DNA of 28,324 nucleotides, taken from positions 1-28,324 of IMG/VR virus record IMGVR_UViG_3300030331_002600; one strand, written 5' to 3'. Position 1 is the first letter of the stretch. Each line of letters opens with the position of its first letter. The DNA is from a virus. This document shows, in pieces, positions 2-15,482 of the stretch. The notes beneath the pieces are model-generated. The model was not told the origin of the DNA. It saw nothing but the letters and a program-made list of their open reading frames with translations, and ran no database searches. The position numbers and the translations under genes are program-made.

Positions 2-427
2 CCTACTAAAAGAGACCCCGATCCTTATAGGGATTGGTTAGATGAGTTAATATCTAACAAACAAGATATGGAAGGGTATGATGCAGGAGAAGAAAGAGAA
101 GATGTGTTTAATTCTAGAATGGCAAGATTTTTGGAAGATGTTGAGGATACTACAGAGTTTGATCAAATAGATTCTGGAAACATTTGGAAAGACGATATGT
201 CAATGAGATTTAAATTAGAGACATTTAGATCATTTATGAAAAAAATGGGTTATAACTGGAATGAAAAAGAATGCACAAGATTTTTAGAACAAGGCGGAGC
301 ACAACCAAAAAAGAAATTTCAAAACTTAGACTCAAGACATTGGTTGGTTGCTTTACCAAAGCAAATAGAGCACAAAAATAAAGATGTCAAATTTACTAAA
401 AAGAAAGCTGCGTGGGAAGACAATTAA
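2..427 (+). CDS. C-terminal part of an unidentified phage protein
   Basis: The reading frame is open from the first bases of the window, so this is the 3' end of a gene that begins upstream; the first in-frame ATG is at 68. The visible 141 residues are rich in charged and aromatic residues, with no transmembrane segment and no motif I can name. The last third (residues roughly 70-130) looks like a small basic, possibly winged-helix domain. It sits directly upstream of a helicase and a DNA polymerase and overlaps the helicase start by 44 bases, so a replication role such as the tail of a primase/helicase protein is possible, but this rests on position only. Confidence 0.75.
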   Translation, partial: PTKRDPDPYRDWLDELISNKQDMEGYDAGEEREDVFNSRMARFLEDVEDTTEFDQIDSGNIWKDDMSMRFKLETFRSFMKKMGYNWNEKECTRFLEQGGAQPKKKFQNLDSRHWLVALPKQIEHKNKDVKFTKKKAAWEDN

Positions 428-1994
428 AATATTTGGACCCCCAGGAACTGGAAAAACTGAAAATTTACTCAAGAGAGTCCAGCGTTATCTTAAACAAGGT
501 TACTCTCCCGATGAAATCTGTTACATATCATTTACCAACAAAGCAGTTGATGAGTGTGTTGCAAGAGTCAGAAAAAGATTTACCAATTATGACGAAGATG
601 ACTTCAAGTATTTTAGAACGTTACATTCTTTGGCCAGACAACAGTTTGCTGAGATTCCCGTTCTAGATCCAAAGGCAGATCTACTTATGTTTCATACACA
701 GTATGGAACTGTGAAAGTAAAATATAAAGACACGTGGGATGATCAAAAAGTATTTAACAATTGGTCCTTACAAATTTATGATAGAGCAAGAAATATGAAA
801 GTTGATCCTGTATGGTTGTATAAACAACAAACTAGAAAAGCTGTTAGATTACAACAATTCAAATCAATTATAAATGGTTACGAAGAATTTAAAACTATGG
901 AACTTGAAACAGGAGAACGAACACCGGACAGATTAGATTTTACCGATATGGTTGAAAGATATATTACAAAAGGATTAGTAATACCTTTTAAAGTATTGAT
1001 GGTGGATGAAGCACAAGATCTTACTCCTTTACAATGGGATATGGTTGTCAAGATAGCTAAACAAGTTGATAGAGTGTATATTGCAGGAGACGATGATCAA
1101 GCTATCTATGAATGGAATGGTGCTGATGTAACTTTATTTCAAACGTTTCCTGGTAAATCCTTGGTTTTAAAAAAATCAGTAAGATTAAATAAGAACGTGC
1201 ACTTCTTTTCTAAATGTTTGTTACATTCTATGGGCGATAATAGGGTGCAAAAAGAATTTTATTCTAATGGTAAGGACGGAAAGATTTATCGTTGGAACAA
1301 TTTAAAAAAGATACCTTGGGACCTAGAGGGTAGTTGGATGGTCTTAGCGAGAATAAACGATGTAAAAAAAGAATTACAAGAGGAGGCTAAAAATCTAGGT
1401 TTATATTTTCAAGATGTTAAAAATAACAAATCATTTGATCCGAATCAGTTCTTAGCTATACAGTATTGGGAAAAAATAGTTGACGGTGGTAGCATAAACC
1501 GTGAAGAGGCCTGTGTGATGTATGAGTATTTGTTGAATATTGACCACGGATACCGGTCACAGGACAGCAAAAAATGGTCGTTTGCCCACCCAAATCAAGT
1601 GTTTACTTTTGATGAATTACATTTAAGATGTGGTATGCGAGACGAAAAATCTTCATGGAAACAAGCATTTAAAAGAAAATTTAAGGAAAAAGATAAAAAA
1701 TACTTCTACAGATTAATGAATGAAGGAGTTGACTTAAATTTACCTCCTAAAATTATTATAGATACAATACATCAAGTAAAAGGTGGAGAAGCTGAAAATG
1801 TTGTTCTTGCAAGTAAATGTAATTTTCCGTCTCACTACGATAAAAAAAGTTTAACAGAAAAAGTAAAAGAACTTAGAGTTTGGTATACAGGAGCAACAAG
1901 GACTAAAAAAACTTTACATTTGTTAGGCACATACCATCAATATCATTTTCCATTGGGAAAATATTTTAATTTATATGAGGCAAATTATGTTTAA
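384..1994 (+). CDS. SF1 (UvrD/Rep/PcrA-like) DNA helicase
   Basis: ATP-dependent DNA helicase, probably unwinding DNA for the polymerase encoded downstream. Motifs seen in order: Walker A GPPGTGKT at residues 18-25, motif Ia YISFTNKAVDE near 47-57, Walker B VDEAQD at 207-212, motif III IAGDDDQAIYEWNG at 233-246, motif V around 459-475 (IDTIHQVKGGEAENV) and motif VI VWYTGATR at 499-506. At 536 residues it is shorter than bacterial UvrD (about 700), as is usual for phage versions. No later ATG precedes Walker A, so the start at 384 is kept although it overlaps the upstream gene by 44 bases and has no clear Shine-Dalgarno. Family assignment is firm; the partnership with the polymerase is inferred from adjacency. 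Confidence 0.95.
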   Translation: MSNLLKRKLRGKTIKIFGPPGTGKTENLLKRVQRYLKQGYSPDEICYISFTNKAVDECVARVRKRFTNYDEDDFKYFRTLHSLARQQFAEIPVLDPKADLLMFHTQYGTVKVKYKDTWDDQKVFNNWSLQIYDRARNMKVDPVWLYKQQTRKAVRLQQFKSIINGYEEFKTMELETGERTPDRLDFTDMVERYITKGLVIPFKVLMVDEAQDLTPLQWDMVVKIAKQVDRVYIAGDDDQAIYEWNGADVTLFQTFPGKSLVLKKSVRLNKNVHFFSKCLLHSMGDNRVQKEFYSNGKDGKIYRWNNLKKIPWDLEGSWMVLARINDVKKELQEEAKNLGLYFQDVKNNKSFDPNQFLAIQYWEKIVDGGSINREEACVMYEYLLNIDHGYRSQDSKKWSFAHPNQVFTFDELHLRCGMRDEKSSWKQAFKRKFKEKDKKYFYRLMNEGVDLNLPPKIIIDTIHQVKGGEAENVVLASKCNFPSHYDKKSLTEKVKELRVWYTGATRTKKTLHLLGTYHQYHFPLGKYFNLYEANYV

Positions 1995-2598: not shown

Positions 2599-2691
2599 AT
2601 GACATTTGGATATGGACTAGGTATGTTTTTAGTGGGTGTGATTGTGATAGCAATAATATTAACAGTAGGTTATTACATAATAAATAAATGA
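2599..2691 (+). CDS. single-pass membrane peptide (30 aa)
   Basis: This very short frame encodes a short polar start, a run of about 20 hydrophobic residues (MFLVGVIVIAIILTVGYYII) and a two-residue polar end, so it is a minimal single transmembrane helix. Its TGA overlaps the ATG of the DNA polymerase gene (ATGA at 2688-2691), which argues that it is translated and coupled to the polymerase. No Shine-Dalgarno is evident. At least three similar peptides occur elsewhere in the window (6918, 8791, 12345). No function can be assigned from sequence. Confidence 0.55.
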   Translation: MTFGYGLGMFLVGVIVIAIILTVGYYIINK

Positions 2692-4562
2692 CTCATCAAT
2701 TAAATTTTATATATAATGATAGCGATTGGGTATGTCCTAATGAATATCCCGACTTATCACAAGCAAAAGAAATAGCAATAGATTTAGAAACTAAAGATCC
2801 TAATTTAAAAAGTAAGGGTTCAGGTTGGGCCACGTTTGATGGCCACATCGTGGGGTTTGCAGTGGCTGCGTTTGACAAACAATGGTATTTCCCAATAGCG
2901 CATGACGCTGGTGGTAACATGGATCTTGGAATAACCACAGCATGGATGCAGGACGTTTTAAAAACACCCGCAACAAAAATATTTCATAATGCAAGTTATG
3001 ATGTGGGTTGGTTGCTTGTGAATGGTTTTGAAATCAAAGGTAAAATTGTAGATACTATGATAGCCGCAGCTTTAGTGGATGAAAATAGATTTAGTTTTAG
3101 TTTAAACGCTTGTGCTAAAGATTGGTTAGGTGAATTAAAAAATGAAACGTTTTTAAATGAAAAGGCTAAAGAGTGGGGTATTGATGCCAAGCAAGATTTA
3201 TGGAGATTACCTGCAGGTTATGTTGGTTTTTATGCTGAGCAAGACGCAGGGTTAACTTTAAAACTTTGGCAGCATCTAAAAACAGAAATAAGTAAACAGA
3301 GTTTACATGATGTTTGGGATATGGAAATGGAGTTGCTTCCTATTTTAATTGAAATGCGTAGGACAGGTATACGTGTTGATGAGGAAAAAGCACATTTATT
3401 AAAAAAAGAATTTAAGGGTAAAGAAAATACTGTATTACATAAAATAAAAAAAGAAACTACGTTAGACGTAGATATATGGGCTGCAAGATCTGTAGCGCAG
3501 GTGTTTGATAGGATAGGTGTAGATTACCCACGGACACCGAAAACCGGAGAACCAAGCTTTACCCAAAATTGGTTAGTGAACTGTGATAACCCAATAGCGC
3601 AACTAATACGAGAAGCAAGAGAAATAAATAAATTCCATTCAACATTCATAGACTCCATACAAAGATACGTTCACAAAGGTAGAATCCACTCAGAGATTAA
3701 TCAATTAAGATCTGACCAGGGCGGAACTGTATCAGGACGTTTAAGTTATTCTAATCCAAATCTTCAACAAATACCAGCAAGAAATAAAGAGTTCGGTAAT
3801 AAAATAAGAAGTTTGTTTTTACCTGAAGAGGGTAGACAATGGGGTAGTTTTGATTATTCACAACAAGAGCCAAGATTAGTTGCTCACTACGCTGCCTCTG
3901 TGGATATTGATGGATCATTTACTGGAGCTGATGAATTTATAAAAGCATATGAAAGTGACGAAGCTGATTTTCATCAGATAGTTGCTGACATGGCTGGAAT
4001 ATCTAGAACTAATGCAAAAACAATTAACTTAGGTTTATTTTATGGTATGGGTAAGGCAAAGTTAGCTAGAGAGTTAGGTATATCAAAAGATGCTGCAGAG
4101 AGTTTATTAAGTAAATATCATACTAGAGTGCCTTTTGTTAAAAGGTTAGCCGAGGCCGTAACTAATAGTGCATCAAAATACGGCTTTATTCGAACAGTAA
4201 GGGGTCGCAAATGCCGATTTAACATGTGGGAGCCTGCTACCTTTGGAATGAACAAAGCTATGCAATACGAAGAGGCTAAAGCCATTTATGGAAACAATAT
4301 TAGAAGAGCCTTTACATACAAAGCTTTAAATAGATTAATACAAGGGTCAGCCGCTGATCAAACAAAACAAGCTATGATTAATTGCCATAAAAAAGGTTTC
4401 AAACCATTATTACAAATCCATGACGAATTGTGCTTTTCTATAAATGAGGAAAATGATATTATTAATTTAAAAAAGGAGATGGAGAATGCAATCGAATATC
4501 TCAAAGTCCCATTTAAAGTGGACATTGCACTTGGGAAAAGTTGGGGAGAAGCAAAAGAGTAA
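2688..4562 (+). CDS. polA: family A DNA polymerase with 3'-5' exonuclease domain
   Basis: Replicative phage DNA polymerase of the Pol I/T7 family, 624 residues. The proofreading domain shows Exo I (D32 and E34 in AIDLETKDP), Exo II (FHNASYDVGW) and Exo III (YAEQDAG). The polymerase domain shows motif A FDYSQQEPR with metal-binding D389, motif B RTNAKTINLGLFYGMG with K444 and Y452, and motif C QIHDEL with H578 and D579. There is no 5'-nuclease domain, as in T7. The O-helix residue aligned with E. coli Phe762 is Leu448. The start overlaps the upstream membrane-peptide stop as ATGA. Identification is secure; the biological meaning of Leu762 is discussed in the findings. Confidence 0.97.
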   Translation: MTHQLNFIYNDSDWVCPNEYPDLSQAKEIAIDLETKDPNLKSKGSGWATFDGHIVGFAVAAFDKQWYFPIAHDAGGNMDLGITTAWMQDVLKTPATKIFHNASYDVGWLLVNGFEIKGKIVDTMIAAALVDENRFSFSLNACAKDWLGELKNETFLNEKAKEWGIDAKQDLWRLPAGYVGFYAEQDAGLTLKLWQHLKTEISKQSLHDVWDMEMELLPILIEMRRTGIRVDEEKAHLLKKEFKGKENTVLHKIKKETTLDVDIWAARSVAQVFDRIGVDYPRTPKTGEPSFTQNWLVNCDNPIAQLIREAREINKFHSTFIDSIQRYVHKGRIHSEINQLRSDQGGTVSGRLSYSNPNLQQIPARNKEFGNKIRSLFLPEEGRQWGSFDYSQQEPRLVAHYAASVDIDGSFTGADEFIKAYESDEADFHQIVADMAGISRTNAKTINLGLFYGMGKAKLARELGISKDAAESLLSKYHTRVPFVKRLAEAVTNSASKYGFIRTVRGRKCRFNMWEPATFGMNKAMQYEEAKAIYGNNIRRAFTYKALNRLIQGSAADQTKQAMINCHKKGFKPLLQIHDELCFSINEENDIINLKKEMENAIEYLKVPFKVDIALGKSWGEAKE

Positions 4563-7813: not shown

Positions 7814-8026
7814 ATGCGAATGAGCAAAGACACTAAATATAATCTTAAAGAAATAGCTGATTCTACAGTTGAGTTCTGTAAAACTCTCAACGGCCGAGAG
7901 CGGACGGATATCATAGCAGAATCGCTTGAGGATTATTATTTTACAGTTGATTTGCAGTCTCCGATAAGCATTCAAAGGCATTATCGTGAGCTTTTCTCCA
8001 GGCTTGTTAAAAATTTTGGGCATTAA
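7814..8026 (+). CDS. unknown protein
   Basis: The frame is open from a GTG at 7766, but the first ATGs are 7814 and 7820, just after a 10-bp inverted repeat. The ATG start gives about 70 residues, with helices (KYNLKEIADSTVEFCKTL and ERTDIIAESLEDYYF) and no membrane segment. No clear Shine-Dalgarno is seen for any candidate, so the start is uncertain. It overlaps the next gene by 41 bases. Function unknown. Confidence 0.6.
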   Translation: MRMSKDTKYNLKEIADSTVEFCKTLNGRERTDIIAESLEDYYFTVDLQSPISIQRHYRELFSRLVKNFGH

Positions 8027-8402
8027 AATATCAGCTCAGTTGGTAGATAGTAACAGGCCGCCTGAGCAGCGTTTGTTTCAAGCTATAATAGTACAGGCCT
8101 TTGAGGACGCTTTAAATTGTAATCCATCTAAGAGTGAGAGTTATTATAAAATTGATGCCCATAATTGGTTTGTTAATTCTAGCGCGGTATTTGAGCAAAT
8201 TTGTTGGTTAGCCGGTTTTGATCCTGAGATGATCACGGATCGTTACCAAAAGTTACATGACAACGGACAAGTGACATTTAGCAAAAGACAGTTGGCCTGG
8301 GTAAAATACAGAAATTTATACAAGGAATATAGGTCAATAAAGGATACCGAAAAAAGGCGAGAGATTATGGGAAATATTAAAAAAATAAGTTTAGAAAGTT
8401 AA
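7986..8402 (+). CDS. conserved-looking phage protein of unknown function
   Basis: A 138-residue protein starting at GTG 7986, eight bases after AAAGG. The N-terminus has no ATG alternative until deep in the gene. The body contains a compact aromatic segment (DAHNWFVNSSAVFEQICWLA) followed by PEMITDRYQKL, then a basic helical tail with KYRNLYKEYRSIKDTEKRR. The spacing of Trp, Phe and Cys suggests a helical DNA-associated domain, but I cannot name it. It is the last gene before the 388-base gene-free region. Confidence 0.78.
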   Translation: MSFSPGLLKILGIKISAQLVDSNRPPEQRLFQAIIVQAFEDALNCNPSKSESYYKIDAHNWFVNSSAVFEQICWLAGFDPEMITDRYQKLHDNGQVTFSKRQLAWVKYRNLYKEYRSIKDTEKRREIMGNIKKISLES

Positions 8403-8549
8403 AATTTAGTCACGGTGGTCTAATGAATTTTGACCCGGGGGCTGTCAAAACAAAAAGAGAGCAGTAGGCTGCCCCCAGATCTAGAGATATAAATAACAAG
8501 AAGTTATTCATAACTAATTAATAGCATAAGATAGAGATATTTACTAGAA

Positions 8550-8567
8550 AATTTCTACTATATAGAT
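8550..8567 (+). other. solitary sequence resembling a type V-A (Cas12a) CRISPR repeat
   Basis: AATTTCTACTATATAGAT matches the Cas12a direct-repeat pattern (AATTTCTACT, short loop, GTAGAT) except that the G of the 3' arm is absent, so one stem pair is lost. There is no second copy, so this is not an array. The sequence also arises from two overlapping palindromes at 8545-8557 and 8563-8573, which is a simpler explanation. Confidence 0.3.
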
Positions 8568-8612
8568 TATCTAGACCCCTAATCAATAAAATATACCCCA
8601 AGGGGTCAAACA

Positions 8613-8707
8613 GGTGTCCCTGGTGTCCCTATTGGTCTATTAGTCAAGTATACCAACGATAATAGTCTATTTTATAGGTGTCCCTATGGTGTCCCTATGG
8701 TGTCCCT
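8613..8707 (+). repeat. GGTGTCCCT iterons, five copies
   Basis: Exact copies of GGTGTCCCT start at 8613, 8622, 8677, 8688 and 8699. The first two abut (9-base period) and the last three are spaced at 11 bases, roughly one helical turn. A sixth copy occurs at 11256-11264 inside the nuclease gene. Same-face phasing is typical of binding sites for an initiator or repressor. Confidence 0.75.
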
Positions 8708-8715
8708 AAGGGACA
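8701..8715. promoter_or_regulatory. 15-base perfect palindrome fused to the last iteron
   Basis: TGTCCCT-A-AGGGACA is a perfect inverted repeat made from the last iteron and its reverse complement. It is a good candidate for a dimeric protein-binding site. Confidence 0.6.
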
Positions 8716-8790
8716 TCAGTCTTGCGGGAACGCAATCAAAACTTTTTTAGATTGTAGTCAGGTGTTAAAATAATCTATATAGTATAATTT

Positions 8791-8895
8791 ATGGTATCTC
8801 AAATATTGATAAGCATTGGGCTTATAAGTTTGATTTATTTATTTATAATAGGATTGTTGATTTTATGGGAATACGAAAAACCAAAACAGAAGTAA
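8791..8895 (+). CDS. single-pass membrane peptide (34 aa)
   Basis: An ATG three bases after a TATAAT encodes MVSQILISIGLISLIYLFII followed by GLLILWEYEKPKQK: one transmembrane helix with a short charged cytoplasmic tail. The gene overlaps the next by 31 bases. No Shine-Dalgarno is present, so it would be leaderless from the adjacent -10 or transcribed from further upstream. Confidence is limited by its size. Confidence 0.42.
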   Translation: MVSQILISIGLISLIYLFIIGLLILWEYEKPKQK

Positions 8896-9306: not shown

Positions 9307-9443
9307 AACGAGCAAAAATAAAAAGAAAAGATTACGATGATATTTATGACTGTATTGTTACGGATCAAATGAGTGCCGCTGATATTGCATATTATTTTAG
9401 TGATTTAAAATTTTTAACTTGGTTTAAAAGGAAGAGAAAGTAA
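9303..9443 (+). CDS. small basic protein (46 aa)
   Basis: It starts at an ATGA overlap with the previous stop and ends at a TAATG overlap with terS, so it is coupled on both sides. It has basic termini (MKRAKIKRKDYDDIYD and WFKRKRK) and a short helix with DQMSAADIAYYFSDL, which could be a minimal helix-turn-helix. The tight junctions on both sides are the main support. Confidence 0.65.
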   Translation: MKRAKIKRKDYDDIYDCIVTDQMSAADIAYYFSDLKFLTWFKRKRK

Positions 9444-9949
9444 TGGGTCTAAAAAAGAAAGAATTAAGAACTGTAGATGACTTAACTCCAAAACAAAAAA
9501 TGTTTGTGGAGATTTATGTTAAAGATTGGGGTAACATCACACAAGCGGAGGCCTTAAAAAGAGCTGGATATGTTTGTAAGAACGAAAATGATTACTCCGC
9601 AATAGCATCTAGATTACTTAGTAGAAGATTAAATCCACATGTTGCTAAATATTTTGACACTAGATTTAGTAAAGAACTTAAAATGTATGAGGGTGACAAC
9701 CTTAGACGATTCAAAAGATTAGAAAGACTAGCAGACAAAGCTGAGAAGAAAGATCAATACGCTGCTGCAATAAATGCAGAATATAGATCAGGACAATTAG
9801 CTGGTGCTTATGTTGATAAAAAAGAAGTTAGAGTAACTGGATTGGAGGGTATGTCACGAGATGAGCTTGAGAAAAAATTACAAGAGCTTTCGACAAAAAT
9901 CGATGGGTACAACGCAAAGACCATCGAAGCCAAAGTGGAAGAAAGCTAG
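9443..9949 (+). CDS. terS: terminase small subunit (Terminase_2-like)
   Basis: DNA-recognition subunit of the packaging motor. The 168-residue protein opens with LTPKQKMFVEIYVKDWGN (about residues 14-31) followed by ITQAEALKRAGY, the helix-turn-helix signature of the phage terminase small-subunit family, and LLSRRLNPHVAKYF. The second half is helical (LERLADKAEKKDQYAAAINA) and fits an oligomerisation region. Start at the TAATG junction with AAGGA ten bases upstream. The large subunit is unusually far away (14.0 kb), with about 4 kb of accessory genes in between. Confidence 0.88.
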   Translation: MGLKKKELRTVDDLTPKQKMFVEIYVKDWGNITQAEALKRAGYVCKNENDYSAIASRLLSRRLNPHVAKYFDTRFSKELKMYEGDNLRRFKRLERLADKAEKKDQYAAAINAEYRSGQLAGAYVDKKEVRVTGLEGMSRDELEKKLQELSTKIDGYNAKTIEAKVEES

Positions 9950-10320: not shown

Positions 10321-10937
10321 ATGTAGAATTACTACGACTATTTCCTACACCTTTATTAATATTGCCGTACGGTGAATCTGTTGATAATGAGCTATCTTAT
10401 CTAAAAACAATTAATTTTTTAGAGCAGAAGGGTAATGGTAATTATAGATCTGAAGATACATTTTTATTAAAAAGAGATGAGTTGTGTAATGTTAAAGTTT
10501 TTATTGAGTTAGCTATTCATAGATTTGTTAAAGATGTTTTAAATTCAGACCAAACAATCAGTATAACACAGTCTTGGGCTAATCGTAATCCCAAAGGATC
10601 AGTACATCATGAGCATGTGCACCCAAATAGTATTGTGTCCGGTGTCATGTATTTTCAAATAAATGAAAAATTACCACCTATACATTTTGTGAGAGAAAGA
10701 CAGGATAGTTTAAAACTTAACGTTACTAAATATAATCAAATTAATGCAGAAGTTTTTAAAGTTTTGTGTAAACCAGGGGATTTAATATTATTTCCGTCAT
10801 CCTTAAGACATAGTGTGCCTATTAATGAGGGTGAGGAAGATAGAATTAGTTTATCATTTAATACTTTTTGCTCTGGTGTTATTGGTTCAAAAGAGTTACT
10901 GACTTTATCCAATTTAGATAATGTTTCACATGAATAA
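10317..10937 (+). CDS. 2OG-Fe(II) oxygenase (TIGR02466/2OG-FeII_Oxy_5-like)
   Basis: Predicted 2-oxoglutarate-dependent dioxygenase of 206 residues. It begins with the LFPTPLLI opening common in this group. A histidine cluster (H97, H98, H100, H102) sits in the segment leading to PNSIVSGVMYF, and the distal half has GDLILFPSSLRHSVP with H165 and DRISLSFN with R176. This architecture matches the TIGR02466-like family, widespread in marine phages, whose substrate is not established. It starts at an ATGA junction. It is a different subtype from the minus-strand oxygenase (4899-5375). Confidence 0.88.
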   Translation: MNVELLRLFPTPLLILPYGESVDNELSYLKTINFLEQKGNGNYRSEDTFLLKRDELCNVKVFIELAIHRFVKDVLNSDQTISITQSWANRNPKGSVHHEHVHPNSIVSGVMYFQINEKLPPIHFVRERQDSLKLNVTKYNQINAEVFKVLCKPGDLILFPSSLRHSVPINEGEEDRISLSFNTFCSGVIGSKELLTLSNLDNVSHE

Positions 10938-11469
10938 ATATAAAAATACTGACTACAAAAGCAATGTAAAAAACCCTGAAAGTCTTTTGTGGCAAAAGGT
11001 AAAAAAAGGACTGACTGATTGCTTCTTAACCCGCATAGAATCTAGTACAATCAATGGAATACCTGATGTTCATGCAGTTGCTAAAACAAAAATATTTTGG
11101 ATTGAATTAAAATCAGATCACATCAGTTTTCCAGCGTTAAATAAATGGCAAATTGTATGGATTAATAAATATATTAAAGCTGGTGGTTCTGTATTTATCC
11201 TGCATGAAAACTTGGGTAAAGCCCTCTTTGAGAGAGTCCTTAAACTGTACGAGCCGGTGTCCCTGTTCACCGATCCTCGGTTACTGAAACCTCGTGCCTC
11301 GTTCTCGTTTCCGTATGACTGGCCAGCGGTCCAGAGTTACCTGTTGCAGGTACCCGGTGCAGCGTCAGATGAAGCTCGTTCTCGTTTAGTTGAACAATCT
11401 CGTTCTCGTTTAAGAAAGGAATTACCATCCCAGTCCAGGCAGCGTACGGCACAGGCACCTTCCACCTGA
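10921..11469 (+). CDS. PD-(D/E)XK (VRR-NUC-like) nuclease
   Basis: A 182-residue protein. The nuclease core is visible as ESLLWQKVKKG (E20), INGIPDVHAV (G46-D49) and IFWIELKSD (E62-x-K64), the classic acidic/ELK arrangement of VRR-NUC or Holliday-junction-type phage nucleases. From about residue 110 base composition rises (32 of 60 bases G/C in 11281-11340) and the coding DNA picks up the CTCGTTCTCGTTT repeat, giving SFSF once and RSRL twice. This tail may be a later addition. A GGTGTCCCT iteron copy lies at 11256. Probable role in recombination or DNA processing. Confidence 0.82.
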   Translation: MFHMNKYKNTDYKSNVKNPESLLWQKVKKGLTDCFLTRIESSTINGIPDVHAVAKTKIFWIELKSDHISFPALNKWQIVWINKYIKAGGSVFILHENLGKALFERVLKLYEPVSLFTDPRLLKPRASFSFPYDWPAVQSYLLQVPGAASDEARSRLVEQSRSRLRKELPSQSRQRTAQAPST

Positions 11470-11489
11470 CGTATGACCTCGTTCTCGTG

Positions 11490-11537
11490 CCAGAGCTCCA
11501 TGTTTTTTTCCCTTTGTTAGTTGACATGGGGCTCTGG
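11490..11537 (+). ncRNA. stable 13-bp hairpin, candidate structured RNA
   Basis: CCAGAGCTCCATG (11490-11502) pairs with CATGGGGCTCTGG (11525-11537), with twelve Watson-Crick pairs and one possible G-U, around a pyrimidine-rich 22-base loop. Flanking ATCCC/GTC (11427-11435) can pair with GAC/GGGAT (11538-11545), extending the fold back into the nuclease gene. No T-run follows, so it is not an obvious terminator. Confidence 0.45.
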
Positions 11538-11678
11538 GACGGGATCCTGTTGGAAGCTCGTTTCTCGTTTAAGAAAGGGAAATGTGTCGTTCTCGTTTTA
11601 CATTTGAGTCTGGGCACCTGCTGCTGGCAACTTCAGGGAGCACCAAGAGCTGCTGGTAAAAAAAATAAAAATTAACTG

Positions 11679-11707
11679 TTGACAAATATCCCATCTGGTC
11701 TTATGTT
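11679..11707 (+). promoter_or_regulatory. strong sigma70-type promoter for 11848-12449
   Basis: Perfect TTGACA (11679-11684), a 17-base spacer and TATGTT (11702-11707). The spacer carries ATATCCCAT (11686-11694), shared with other promoters in the window. Transcription would start near 11714 and produce a leader of about 135 bases. Confidence 0.7.
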
Positions 11708-11768
11708 AGAAATGGATCAGTTGAACCTTGACTAACTCGAAAGAGGAACTGCGGCTAAGACTGATCAG

Positions 11769-11821
11769 GATCAGTAGTCGAAAGCGGGTTGGATGGTTAA
11801 CCTTTAACCCCGCTACTGATC
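11769..11821 (+). promoter_or_regulatory. folded 5' leader with nested stems
   Basis: An outer stem GATCAGTAG (11769-11777) with CTACTGATC (11813-11821) encloses an inner stem CGGGTT (11785-11790) with AACCCCG (11806-11812, one bulged C). The loop holds copy 2 of the 18-base repeat (11787-11804), whose own GGTT/AACC pairing competes with the inner stem, so two alternative folds are possible. The fold ends 15 bases before the AAAGGAG of the next gene. Confidence 0.55.
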
Positions 11822-11847
11822 GGATAAGAATTAACAAAGGAGAAACA

Positions 11848-12006
11848 ATGATACACGATGATGACATGAAGGATTGGGTCGGCAAATGCCCACACCATGA
11901 TAATGAGATACTTCATTCAGACGATAACGGAATAATTATATGCATCCGCTTTAACAACGAAAAGGAAATGGATGAACCAACAAAGGAGAAAAGATATGAA
12001 AGATAA
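11848..12006 (+). CDS. small acidic protein (52 aa)
   Basis: ATG 11848 follows AAAGGAG (11836-11842) with a five-base spacer; a longer frame from a TTG at 11728 would run through the folded leader and is rejected. The sequence MIHDDDMKDWVGKCPHHDNE is rich in Asp, His and Cys (C14, H16, H17), which could bind a metal, and is followed by DDNGIIICIRF. First gene of a small operon (11848-12449). Function unknown. Confidence 0.68.
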   Translation: MIHDDDMKDWVGKCPHHDNEILHSDDNGIIICIRFNNEKEMDEPTKEKRYER

Positions 12007-12244
12007 ACCCGAAGCAGGTAAGACCTACGCACTGACCGGTGCTCGGGGCAGCAAATGCATTGCCAACGGAAACAGTTGGAAGGAGTCTGAGGTACCTTCA
12101 GGCTGCAGCATCACCCTCGTGTGGGGGAAAGGATACGATGTGGAGAAGAGATACGACTTTGATACCGTGCAGCAGAAGGAGGCGTTCATCAAAGGTGTCG
12201 AAGAAGCAGTTGGCTGGATGGACTATCGTATAAAAGGAGATTAG
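11996..12244 (+). CDS. unknown small protein (82 aa)
   Basis: ATG 11996 lies seven bases after AAAGGAG and overlaps the preceding stop region by 11 bases. The protein is polar with a beta-rich first half (KTYALTGARGSKCIAN, SGCSITLVWGKG) and a C-terminal helix (QQKEAFIKGVEEAVGWMDY). Its base composition is visibly more GC-rich than the surrounding genes, as in the whole 11.3-12.5 kb stretch, suggesting a different origin. No family recognised. Confidence 0.7.
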   Translation: MKDKPEAGKTYALTGARGSKCIANGNSWKESEVPSGCSITLVWGKGYDVEKRYDFDTVQQKEAFIKGVEEAVGWMDYRIKGD

Positions 12245-12246
12245 TA

Positions 12247-12345
12247 ATGTCGTGTCGTTCTCGCCTCGTCTCGTTTGGTTTTAGAATTAACATTGGTTAC
12301 CGGGCCCTGCGGGGCCAGACCCATCCCAGGCTGTTGCGTAGATAA
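12247..12345 (+). CDS. tiny Arg-rich peptide (32 aa)
   Basis: ATG 12247 sits seven bases after a strong AAAAGGAG (12232-12239), and its stop overlaps the next ATG as TAATG, two signs of real translation. The product, MSCRSRLVSFGFRINIGYRA plus a basic tail, has many arginines; its start is encoded by the CTCGTTCTCG-type repeat. A GC hairpin (GGCCC 12303-12307 with GGGCC 12312-12316) lies inside the frame. Function unknown; the peptide could also serve to couple translation to the next frame. Confidence 0.48.
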   Translation: MSCRSRLVSFGFRINIGYRALRGQTHPRLLRR

Positions 12346-12449
12346 TGATACATTTATTTGGATTTTTACTGCTGGCATACCTGTTAGCTCCTAGGTTTGG
12401 TAACCTCGTTCTCGTACTGATTATGTTGATTTTCTTATATCTTAAGTGA
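12345..12449 (+). CDS. single-pass membrane peptide (34 aa)
   Basis: It begins at a TAATG junction and encodes MIHLFGFLLLAYLLAPRFGN followed by LVLVLIMLIFLYLK, a chain that is almost entirely hydrophobic with one Arg in the middle. It could form one long or two short membrane segments. The LVLV stretch is encoded by a copy of the CTCGTTCTCGT repeat. No Shine-Dalgarno of its own, consistent with coupling to the upstream peptide. Confidence 0.48.
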   Translation: MIHLFGFLLLAYLLAPRFGNLVLVLIMLIFLYLK

Positions 12450-13845: not shown

Positions 13846-13866
13846 ATGGCGCGTTTATCGCGCCAT
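13846..13866. promoter_or_regulatory. perfect 8-bp GC hairpin before terL
   Basis: ATGGCGCG (13846-13853), loop TTTAT, CGCGCCAT (13859-13866). Very stable but without a T-run, so either a weak terminator, an mRNA stabiliser or a protein-binding site between the accessory and late modules. Confidence 0.5.
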
Positions 13867-14003
13867 TGGTGTATCCAAGGCTCACCTGTAGCTACAAAAT
13901 GCAGAAGGTTGTGCCTGGCAAAAAACCGCGTAAAATGCGCTGTGCATTTTGCAAAAGAGGTTTACAAAGCAATATACATAAATATACTAAGGACCCAAAC
14001 GGT

Positions 14004-15482
14004 ATGAACTTAGAAAACCTTACAGAAGATGAATTAAAAGATTTAATTTTGCAAAAGCAATTGCAGTGGATCAAGTTATGCCAAGATGATTTTTTAATTT
14101 TTGCTCAAACAGTTTGGCAAGATTTTATTTATCGTAAAACAAAGGACCCAAAAAGATATGGGCACCATCAAATAATAGCTGAAGAGTTTCAAAAAATAGC
14201 GGCCAATAAAGAAAAAAGGCTCATTATCAATATGCCACCAAGACATACTAAATCAGAATTTGCATCTTATTTATTCCCCGCATGGATGATTGGTAGGAAT
14301 CCTAAGATGAAAATAATGCAGGTATCACACAATGCGGAACTCGCTACAAGATTCGGTAGCAAAGTTCGTAATTTAATGAATACCAAGGAGTATAAACAGA
14401 TCTTCGGAAATGTTACACTAAGAGAAGATAGTAAGGCAAAAGGCCGTTGGGAGACAAATCATGGTGGCGAATATTTTGCAGCGGGGGTTGGCGGTTCTAT
14501 CACAGGACGAGGGGCGGATTTGCTTATTATCGATGACCCACATACTGAACAAGACTCAATGTCTGATTCTGCTATGGATAGAGCTTATGACTGGTATTCA
14601 TCAGGACCTAGACAACGTTTACAACCAGGTGGAAGAATTTGTGTTGTGATGACAAGATGGGCTACTGATGATTTAACAGGAAGGCTCATTAAGGCTCAAT
14701 CTGAGCCTAAAGCAGATAAATGGAAAGTTATAGAGTTTCCTGCAATACTTCCTAACGATCAACCTGTATGGCCTGAATATTGGTCGAAAGAAGATTTGGA
14801 AGCTGTCAAAGCTTCGGTGTCCGTAAAAAATTGGAATGCACAATACATGCAAGATCCTACTTCAGAAGAAGGTGCAATCATAAAACGCGAGTGGTGGCAA
14901 AATTGGGATAAAGAATATACGCCAAAACTTTTACACGTTATACAAAGTTACGATACAGCATTTTCTAAAAAAGAGTCAGCGGACTATTCAGCCATAACCA
15001 CTTGGGGTATTTTTGAACCTGTAGAGGGTTATGAAAAATGTATAATACTTTTAGATGCAATGAAGGGTAGGTATGATTTTCCTGATTTAAAAAATGTTGC
15101 ATTAGAGCAATATCATTACTGGGAACCGGAAACTGTAATTATTGAGGCTAAAGCCTCAGGGCAGCCTTTGATACATGAGCTAAGGAGAGCAGGGATACCG
15201 GTCATCGATTACGTCCCTGCAAGAGGTAGAGATAAACACACTAGAATAAACAGTTGTGCTCCTGTTTTTGAATCGGGTATGGTATATGCCCCTTTAGATC
15301 AAAACTATGCTCAAGAAGTTGTTGAAGAATGTGCAGCTTTTCCAAATGGCCAATTTGATGACTATGTTGATAGTATGACACAAGCTGTGTTAAGATACAG
15401 ACAAGGAGGATTTGTATCAACTTACTCTGACGATTGGGATGAACCCAATTTTAAAGTAGAGAAAGAATATAAATATTATTAA
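14004..15482 (+). CDS. terL: terminase large subunit
   Basis: ATPase/nuclease motor of DNA packaging, 492 residues from ATG 14004 (AAGGA ten bases upstream). Walker A-like MPPRHTKS at residues 77-84, Walker B LLIIDDPH at 173-180, coupling segment VVMTRWATDDLTGRL at 214-228. The RNase H-type nuclease has its first aspartate in QSYDTAFS (D317) and the last in the FDDYVDSM segment near the C-terminus. The frame is open a further 46 codons upstream (to a TTG at 13866), with three cysteines including CAFC. That extension has no ATG with a ribosome site but cannot be excluded. Confidence 0.95.
   Translation: MNLENLTEDELKDLILQKQLQWIKLCQDDFLIFAQTVWQDFIYRKTKDPKRYGHHQIIAEEFQKIAANKEKRLIINMPPRHTKSEFASYLFPAWMIGRNPKMKIMQVSHNAELATRFGSKVRNLMNTKEYKQIFGNVTLREDSKAKGRWETNHGGEYFAAGVGGSITGRGADLLIIDDPHTEQDSMSDSAMDRAYDWYSSGPRQRLQPGGRICVVMTRWATDDLTGRLIKAQSEPKADKWKVIEFPAILPNDQPVWPEYWSKEDLEAVKASVSVKNWNAQYMQDPTSEEGAIIKREWWQNWDKEYTPKLLHVIQSYDTAFSKKESADYSAITTWGIFEPVEGYEKCIILLDAMKGRYDFPDLKNVALEQYHYWEPETVIIEAKASGQPLIHELRRAGIPVIDYVPARGRDKHTRINSCAPVFESGMVYAPLDQNYAQEVVEECAAFPNGQFDDYVDSMTQAVLRYRQGGFVSTYSDDWDEPNFKVEKEYKYY

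Follow-up and report, generated by a model that had tools for sequence, protein, structure and literature searches.

The repeat array that begins at position 8,613 of IMG/VR virus record IMGVR_UViG_3300030331_002600 is probably the DNA-packaging initiation site of an HTVC023P-type phage of SAR11 (Pelagibacter). The record is an incomplete viral contig of 28,324 nucleotides (28.3 kb), classed as 'linear' in IMG/VR, and is hereafter called the window. The array lies beside terS, the gene of the small terminase subunit (TerS), and its repeated units are grouped about a spacer that resembles a site for integration host factor (IHF), in a geometry that is also found by a search blind to the unit sequence. 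Binding of the units by TerS, bending of the spacer, the position of the cut, and headful packaging rather than packaging from a cohesive-end (cos) site are predicted.

For convenience, the direct units are numbered R1 to R5 from upstream to downstream (Table 1). All five are exact copies of the 9-mer GGTGTCCCT on the plus strand, with successive spacings of 9, 55, 11, and 11 bp, and a sixth copy is present on the plus strand at 11256. The 9-mer is expected 0.10 times (s.d. 0.30) per window in dinucleotide shuffles, and none of 100 shuffles reaches six copies. R5 and the inverted unit form a perfect 15-bp palindrome, TGTCCCT-A-AGGGACA, at 8701–8715. Most relatives have the complete AGGGACACC as their inverted unit, with a centre base that varies. 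The array is located in a 462-bp gap (8403–8864) devoid of open reading frames (ORFs) of at least 60 amino acids, between the early/replication genes (helicase and polymerase) and the packaging genes terS and terL. Besides the AT-rich spacer, the gap contains GC hairpins at 8432–8481 and 8574–8607. An earlier note, made from the letters of the window alone, had described the 9-mers, the 11-bp period of the last three, the closing palindrome, the AT-rich block with GC hairpins, and the gene-free stretch at the replication/late junction, all of which we find. An RNA element was rejected, as no Rfam family matches the array region. In the small hairpin 3' of the palindrome, some relatives have TAGCG-GGAA-CGCTA, a paired change that hints at selection on the hairpin.

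The relatives considered here are at least 120 marine viral loci in IMG/VR found with the pattern GGTGTCCCTNNGGTGTCCCT, and counts over relatives are among the matches listed. Nearly all of them share one plan. It opens with one or two units; after a gap that sets the next group 53–55 bp away, two or three units follow at 11-bp spacing, and an inverted unit closes the series. The earlier note had named a lack of such arrays in relatives as the result that would refute it; instead, conservation at this locus is very strong. Among bacterial and archaeal genomes (257 Gb), the same pattern has 16 matches, where 7–8 are expected by chance (from 18 specified bases). Two of the 16 were checked and both carry the true element: a contig of a marine metagenome-assembled genome (L292) and a 47.8-kb contig of the SAR11 single cell AG-919-D18 (L302), whose neighbouring genes are up to 89% identical to those of the window. 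These two matches tie the phage group to SAR11. The single-cell contig, with a polymerase and a TerS that are 87% and 89% identical in protein sequence to the phage type of the window, probably comes from an infected SAR11 cell. Of cultured phages, Pelagibacter phage HTVC023P is the closest relative found; its terL DNA is 74% identical. A similarity search with the array DNA gives only chance-level matches in cultured phages, because the unit of HTVC023P differs.

The array is tightly linked to terS. The gene is detected in 115 of the 120 listed relatives and is in all 115 downstream of the array and on the same strand, at a distance of 0.1–1.3 kb; it is likewise downstream in 75 of 75 listed loci whose sequence continues for more than 2.5 kb beyond the array. 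HTVC023P has an analogous array, placed about 180 bp ahead of terS and consisting of CTAGGAAA CTAGGAAAA, AATCAATACTTCT, a pair of CTAGGAAAA copies 11 bp apart, and an inverted TTCCTA. In 023Pt_psg01, terS is inverted relative to terL, and short sets of 11-bp-phased units are positioned directly upstream of the inverted terS in this phage and in its IMG/VR relatives. Inverted-terS phages also have GC-rich degenerate repeats in intergenic regions near terS (CAAGCCACAAGCTCCAAGC... and GCGAGCGAGCGAGC... in L124, which is HTVC027P, and L125, which is 023Pt_psg01).

The geometry is recovered without reference to the unit. For 112 distinct terS genes, we scanned the preceding 450 bp for any 8-mer repeated as one pair, a spacer, and a second pair at 11 bp, with a threshold at the 99% level of Markov-shuffled sequence and with 112 windows inside or downstream of terS as controls. 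The geometry is found upstream of 58 of the 112 distinct terS genes and in none of the 112 control windows, with a maximum score of 48 compared with 34 in the shuffles. The spacings fall into two classes, 9/53–55/11 for GGTGTCCCT and 8/43–44/11 for CTAGGAA, whose spacers differ by about one helical turn.

Within one genome the units are identical, whereas between lineages their sequence differs. CTAGGAA occupies -185, -177, -133, -122, and, reversed, -113 in L193; CTAAGAA occupies -211, -203, -159, -148, and, reversed, -139 in L190. The relative positions in these two loci are the same (8, 44, 11, then the inverted unit). Other units are TTAAGAA (L262), TGACAT-like (L274 and L282), and CTCCCAGTT-like (L276 and L278), and in the inverted-terS clade ACGTGA, ACAGGAC, and ACGTAA alternate in concert at nearly equal positions. 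Arrays of the L013 type mix GGTGGGTCT with two copies of GGTGTCCCT, and the recognition residues of their TerS are unchanged. Five or six sites that change in parallel are the outcome expected of selection by one DNA-binding protein. It is conceivable, at somewhat less than even odds, that the headful HTVC023P-type ocean phages use a 'packaging code', in which the geometry of the pac site is fixed and the 7–9-bp unit has been replaced several times together with the recognition helix of TerS.

The spacer carries a motif like that of a DNA-bending protein. When 68 distinct spacers are scored against the nine positions of the IHF consensus WATCAANNNNTTR, 47% match at eight or nine positions, compared with 15% of shuffles. 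The motif is on one strand in 66 of the 68, with the consensus tAtA.CAAcacTT.tAg. Genes of the HU/IHF family, usually two or three, are present in every one of 41 genomes of relatives of the SAR11 single cell, and in one relative (G082) IHF alpha and IHF beta are both clear. IHF or HU is a plausible bender of the spacer, judging from motif and gene content.

Judged from its sequence and its predicted structure, TerS is the putative reader of the units. The AlphaFold model of TerS has a mean predicted local distance difference test score (pLDDT) of 75, and about 89 over residues 11–80, which include the helix-turn-helix (HTH) helices 16–27, 34–40, and 48–58. Residues 13–76 fit the DNA-binding domain of the SF6 phage protein G1P (PDB 2cmp) with a Z score of 7.6 and a root mean square deviation of 1.7 Å over 56 residues at 34% identity (VIA-align); a Foldseek search with the model gives no significant match. 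The other candidate binder, the product of the conserved upstream neighbour gene X, has a confident model (pLDDT 90.8). Foldseek finds no match to it in the PDB at an E value of 0.001 or better, and its best structural match has a Z score of 3.7. We rejected it as the binder for want of a significant fold match; it has no recognisable DNA-binding fold. Among the listed relatives gene X has a median identity of 48%, compared with 75% for TerS, while the unit is fixed, and in HTVC023P a reverse-strand gene lies between gene X and the array. No recombination that separates gene X from terS was found; the pair is linked throughout, so linkage alone cannot exclude gene X.

Table 1 Features of the array region and neighbouring genes in the window.
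Feature	Position	Strand	Remark
Unit R1, GGTGTCCCT	8613–8621	+	
Unit R2, GGTGTCCCT	8622–8630	+	9 bp from R1; R1–R2 spacing conserved in relatives
AT-rich spacer, ~46 bp	8631–8676	+	bend-protein-like motif ATACCAACGATAAT at 8650–8663
Unit R3, GGTGTCCCT	8677–8685	+	
Unit R4, GGTGTCCCT	8688–8696	+	11 bp from R3
Unit R5, GGTGTCCCT	8699–8707	+	11 bp from R4
Inverted unit, AGGGACATC (8/9)	8709–8717	-	makes palindrome with R5
GC hairpin GACCCCT...AGGGGTC	8574–8607		directly before R1; GACCCC/GGGG also seen in L302
Small hairpin TTGCG-GGAA-CGCAA	8722–8735		3' of palindrome; TCTTGCGGGAACGCAATC in many relatives, with variants such as TAGCG...CGCTA
Left arm of flanking inverted repeat	8550–8580		31 nt, 81% complementary to 8760–8790
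Right arm of flanking inverted repeat	8760–8790		
terS, small terminase subunit, proposed unit binder	9443–9949	+	Pfam Terminase_2 7e-9; phrog_51 2e-10
terL, large terminase subunit	13866–15482	+	Terminase_6C/6N; phrog_38 1e-116
Gene X, all-helical, conserved upstream neighbour, rival binder	7986–8402	+	in 109/120 listed relatives
UvrD-type helicase	384–1994		
DNA polymerase A	2688–4562		

These features suggest the following mechanism. The N-terminal HTH of TerS would read the 9-bp units, and both groups, the upstream two and the downstream two or three, would face one and the same side of the helix. A host protein of the IHF/HU type would bend the AT-rich spacer and bring both groups of units together, so that one TerS ring could hold them at once. 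The large terminase subunit (TerL) would then be loaded and would cut nearby, and packaging would start, most likely in the headful (pac) mode.

Several observations weigh against this assignment. About half of the regions upstream of distinct terS genes fail the strict geometry search; many of these failures are arrays that are more than 450 bp away or one unit short. For HTVC027P-type terS, no clear array is seen by eye. The spacer of the window is itself a weak IHF match, and IHF is partly divergent in the SAR11 relatives; in one of them (G063) the alpha-like and the beta-like protein both diverge. TerS residues 45–53, a stretch overlapping the third HTH helix, have 57% identity within a unit class and 5% between classes where the remaining TerS is equally diverged (50–60% identical). 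This contrast is consistent with TerS as the reader of the units, but it is not independent evidence, because the covariation comes mostly from a single deep divergence of two clades and because the C-terminal tail of TerS (residues 150–164) contrasts between the classes as strongly as the HTH.

The near-palindromic arms that flank the element are also features of the locus. The arm motif AATAATCTATATAGTATAAT has only two sites in the window, namely the two arms. Relatives match on average 14.3 of 16 positions, compared with 11.4 in shuffled controls, and in both unit classes the element is framed by such arms, with sequences that differ. A dispersed promoter motif was rejected as an explanation, for the motif is present only at the array locus both in the window and in HTVC023P. 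The arms are possible cleavage sites, a possible cruciform, or possible paired promoters.

Whether a packaging site at this position would be of the pac or the cos type can be weighed from the assemblies. Contig ends fall within 300 bp of the array in 8 cases, compared with 9.4 expected, i.e., without enrichment, and the array is internal in contigs of 54–63 kb, which is near genome length. In addition, 81 HTVC023P-type genomes from viromes have been circularised by terminal overlap (PMC9599517). These observations favour headful packaging and are also compatible with cos. In the cos alternative, TerS would bind the same site, but cohesive ends would arise from a staggered cut at a fixed position, a cosN close by. 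The layout of the array is closest to that of lambda cosB and the flanking arms could be the cut sites, but the absence of an excess of contig ends, the internal position of the array, and the circularised relatives count against this alternative, which we regard as unlikely. As library preparation can join cohesive ends that have annealed, assemblies leave room for cos. Among open-licence papers, no literature on cos sites of pelagiphages was found.

The main rival of the packaging-site assignment, itself unlikely, is an array of operator or activator sites that would serve the late (terS) operon, where a phage regulator or TerS itself would bind the units and control a promoter between the array and terS. 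The position of the array, upstream of terS and on the same strand wherever terS is found in the listed relatives, is as this rival would have it, and the 11-bp phasing suits activator sites. A TATAAT-like sequence overlaps the right arm at 8784–8789, and a TGnTATnAT-like sequence precedes terS in HTVC023P-type loci. However, promoter matches in the gap are at the chance level (3 found and 2.7 expected), with the reservation that SAR11-phage promoters may differ, and gene X lacks a recognisable DNA-binding fold, diverges more than TerS while the unit stays fixed, and is parted from the array in HTVC023P.

The earlier note had read the array as a phased protein-binding array and, more specifically, as an iteron replication origin or an operator. 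The conserved and phased array stands; an origin at which a phage or host initiator binds is very improbable. Direct repeats, AT-rich DNA, and a bend site together resemble an iteron origin, and the site is at the junction of replication and late genes. The GC skew, a check proposed in that note, does not change direction at the array of the window, and along the HTVC023P genome it runs monotonically. Neither the scan of ten window proteins nor the annotation of HTVC023P reveals a recognisable initiator gene. Moreover, the array adjoins terS and not the polymerase and helicase genes, and a similar array accompanies terS where terS is inverted. A phage attachment site (attP), with arm-type repeats for an integrase and an IHF site as in lambda attP, can practically be dismissed: HTVC023P, a complete relative, has no annotated integrase, the ten scanned window proteins include none, and no tRNA was found. 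As for the copy at 11256, the note had suggested a looping site. The copy exists, but it is coding, spanning the codons for PVSL of a PVSLF stretch in the ORF 10921–11469. Among 73 relatives with this gene, PV[ST][LI]F is present at this place in 4 and the 9-mer in 2 of those (L065 and L076); we therefore rejected the looping site.

Elsewhere in the window, a dispersed repeat, CGTTCTCGT (often CTCGTTCTCGTTT), has six copies at 11298–12415, all on the plus strand, in a block that is GC-richer (43–45%) than its surroundings (about 33%). At least two copies are present in 51 of the 120 listed relatives, where 217 copies in 873 kb compare with roughly 3 expected by composition. HTVC023P has none.

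How a pac-type TerS finds its own DNA has been described as an unanswered question, and its binding in vitro as mostly weak and sequence-independent (PMC9611059). If the packaging code were true, a pac-type TerS would read sequence through phased repeats around a bend. Abundant ocean phages offer aligned sets of TerS and array in which the sequence is switched and the geometry is fixed, making recognition directly testable through exchange of unit and helix. The array would also serve as a marker of packaging specificity in uncultured SAR11 phages and could guide a search for satellites that borrow it. No literature joining TerS, pac, and IHF was found among open-licence papers.

The array combines features of several known systems. 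In lambda, cosB has the order R3-IHF(I1)-R2-R1, and specificity in lambda, 21, and N15 is set by the recognition helix of TerS (PMC4669245), such that unit sequence and helix specify each other. Like cosB, the array lies next to terS and has several TerS units to either side of an IHF bend, units and bend being putative here. It differs in having 2+3 units plus an inverted one at a strict 9/11-bp spacing, in that a cosN is hypothetical and fixed ends leave no sign, and in its TerS, which is of the SF6/SPP1 G1P type. The pac site of P1 has the order HEX4-IHF/cut-HEX3 (PMC10028697); like the array, it places two clusters of short units on either side of an IHF site, and P1 packaging is headful. 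The P1 units, however, are TGATCA/G Dam sites inside pacA, whereas the array is intergenic and its units are non-Dam and exchanged between lineages. From both systems the array differs in unit number, in the strict 8–9/11-bp phasing, in the flanking arms, and in the SF6/SPP1 type of the TerS of its phages. With SPP1 and SF6 (PMC9611059), it shares the fold of the TerS DNA-binding domain (2cmp, Z score 7.6), and SPP1 has multiple TerS contacts flanking the cut; in contrast to those phages, the repeated units and their concerted change argue for sequence-specific reading here. Iteron origins likewise have phased direct repeats beside AT-rich DNA, but the array is linked to terS and not to an initiator.
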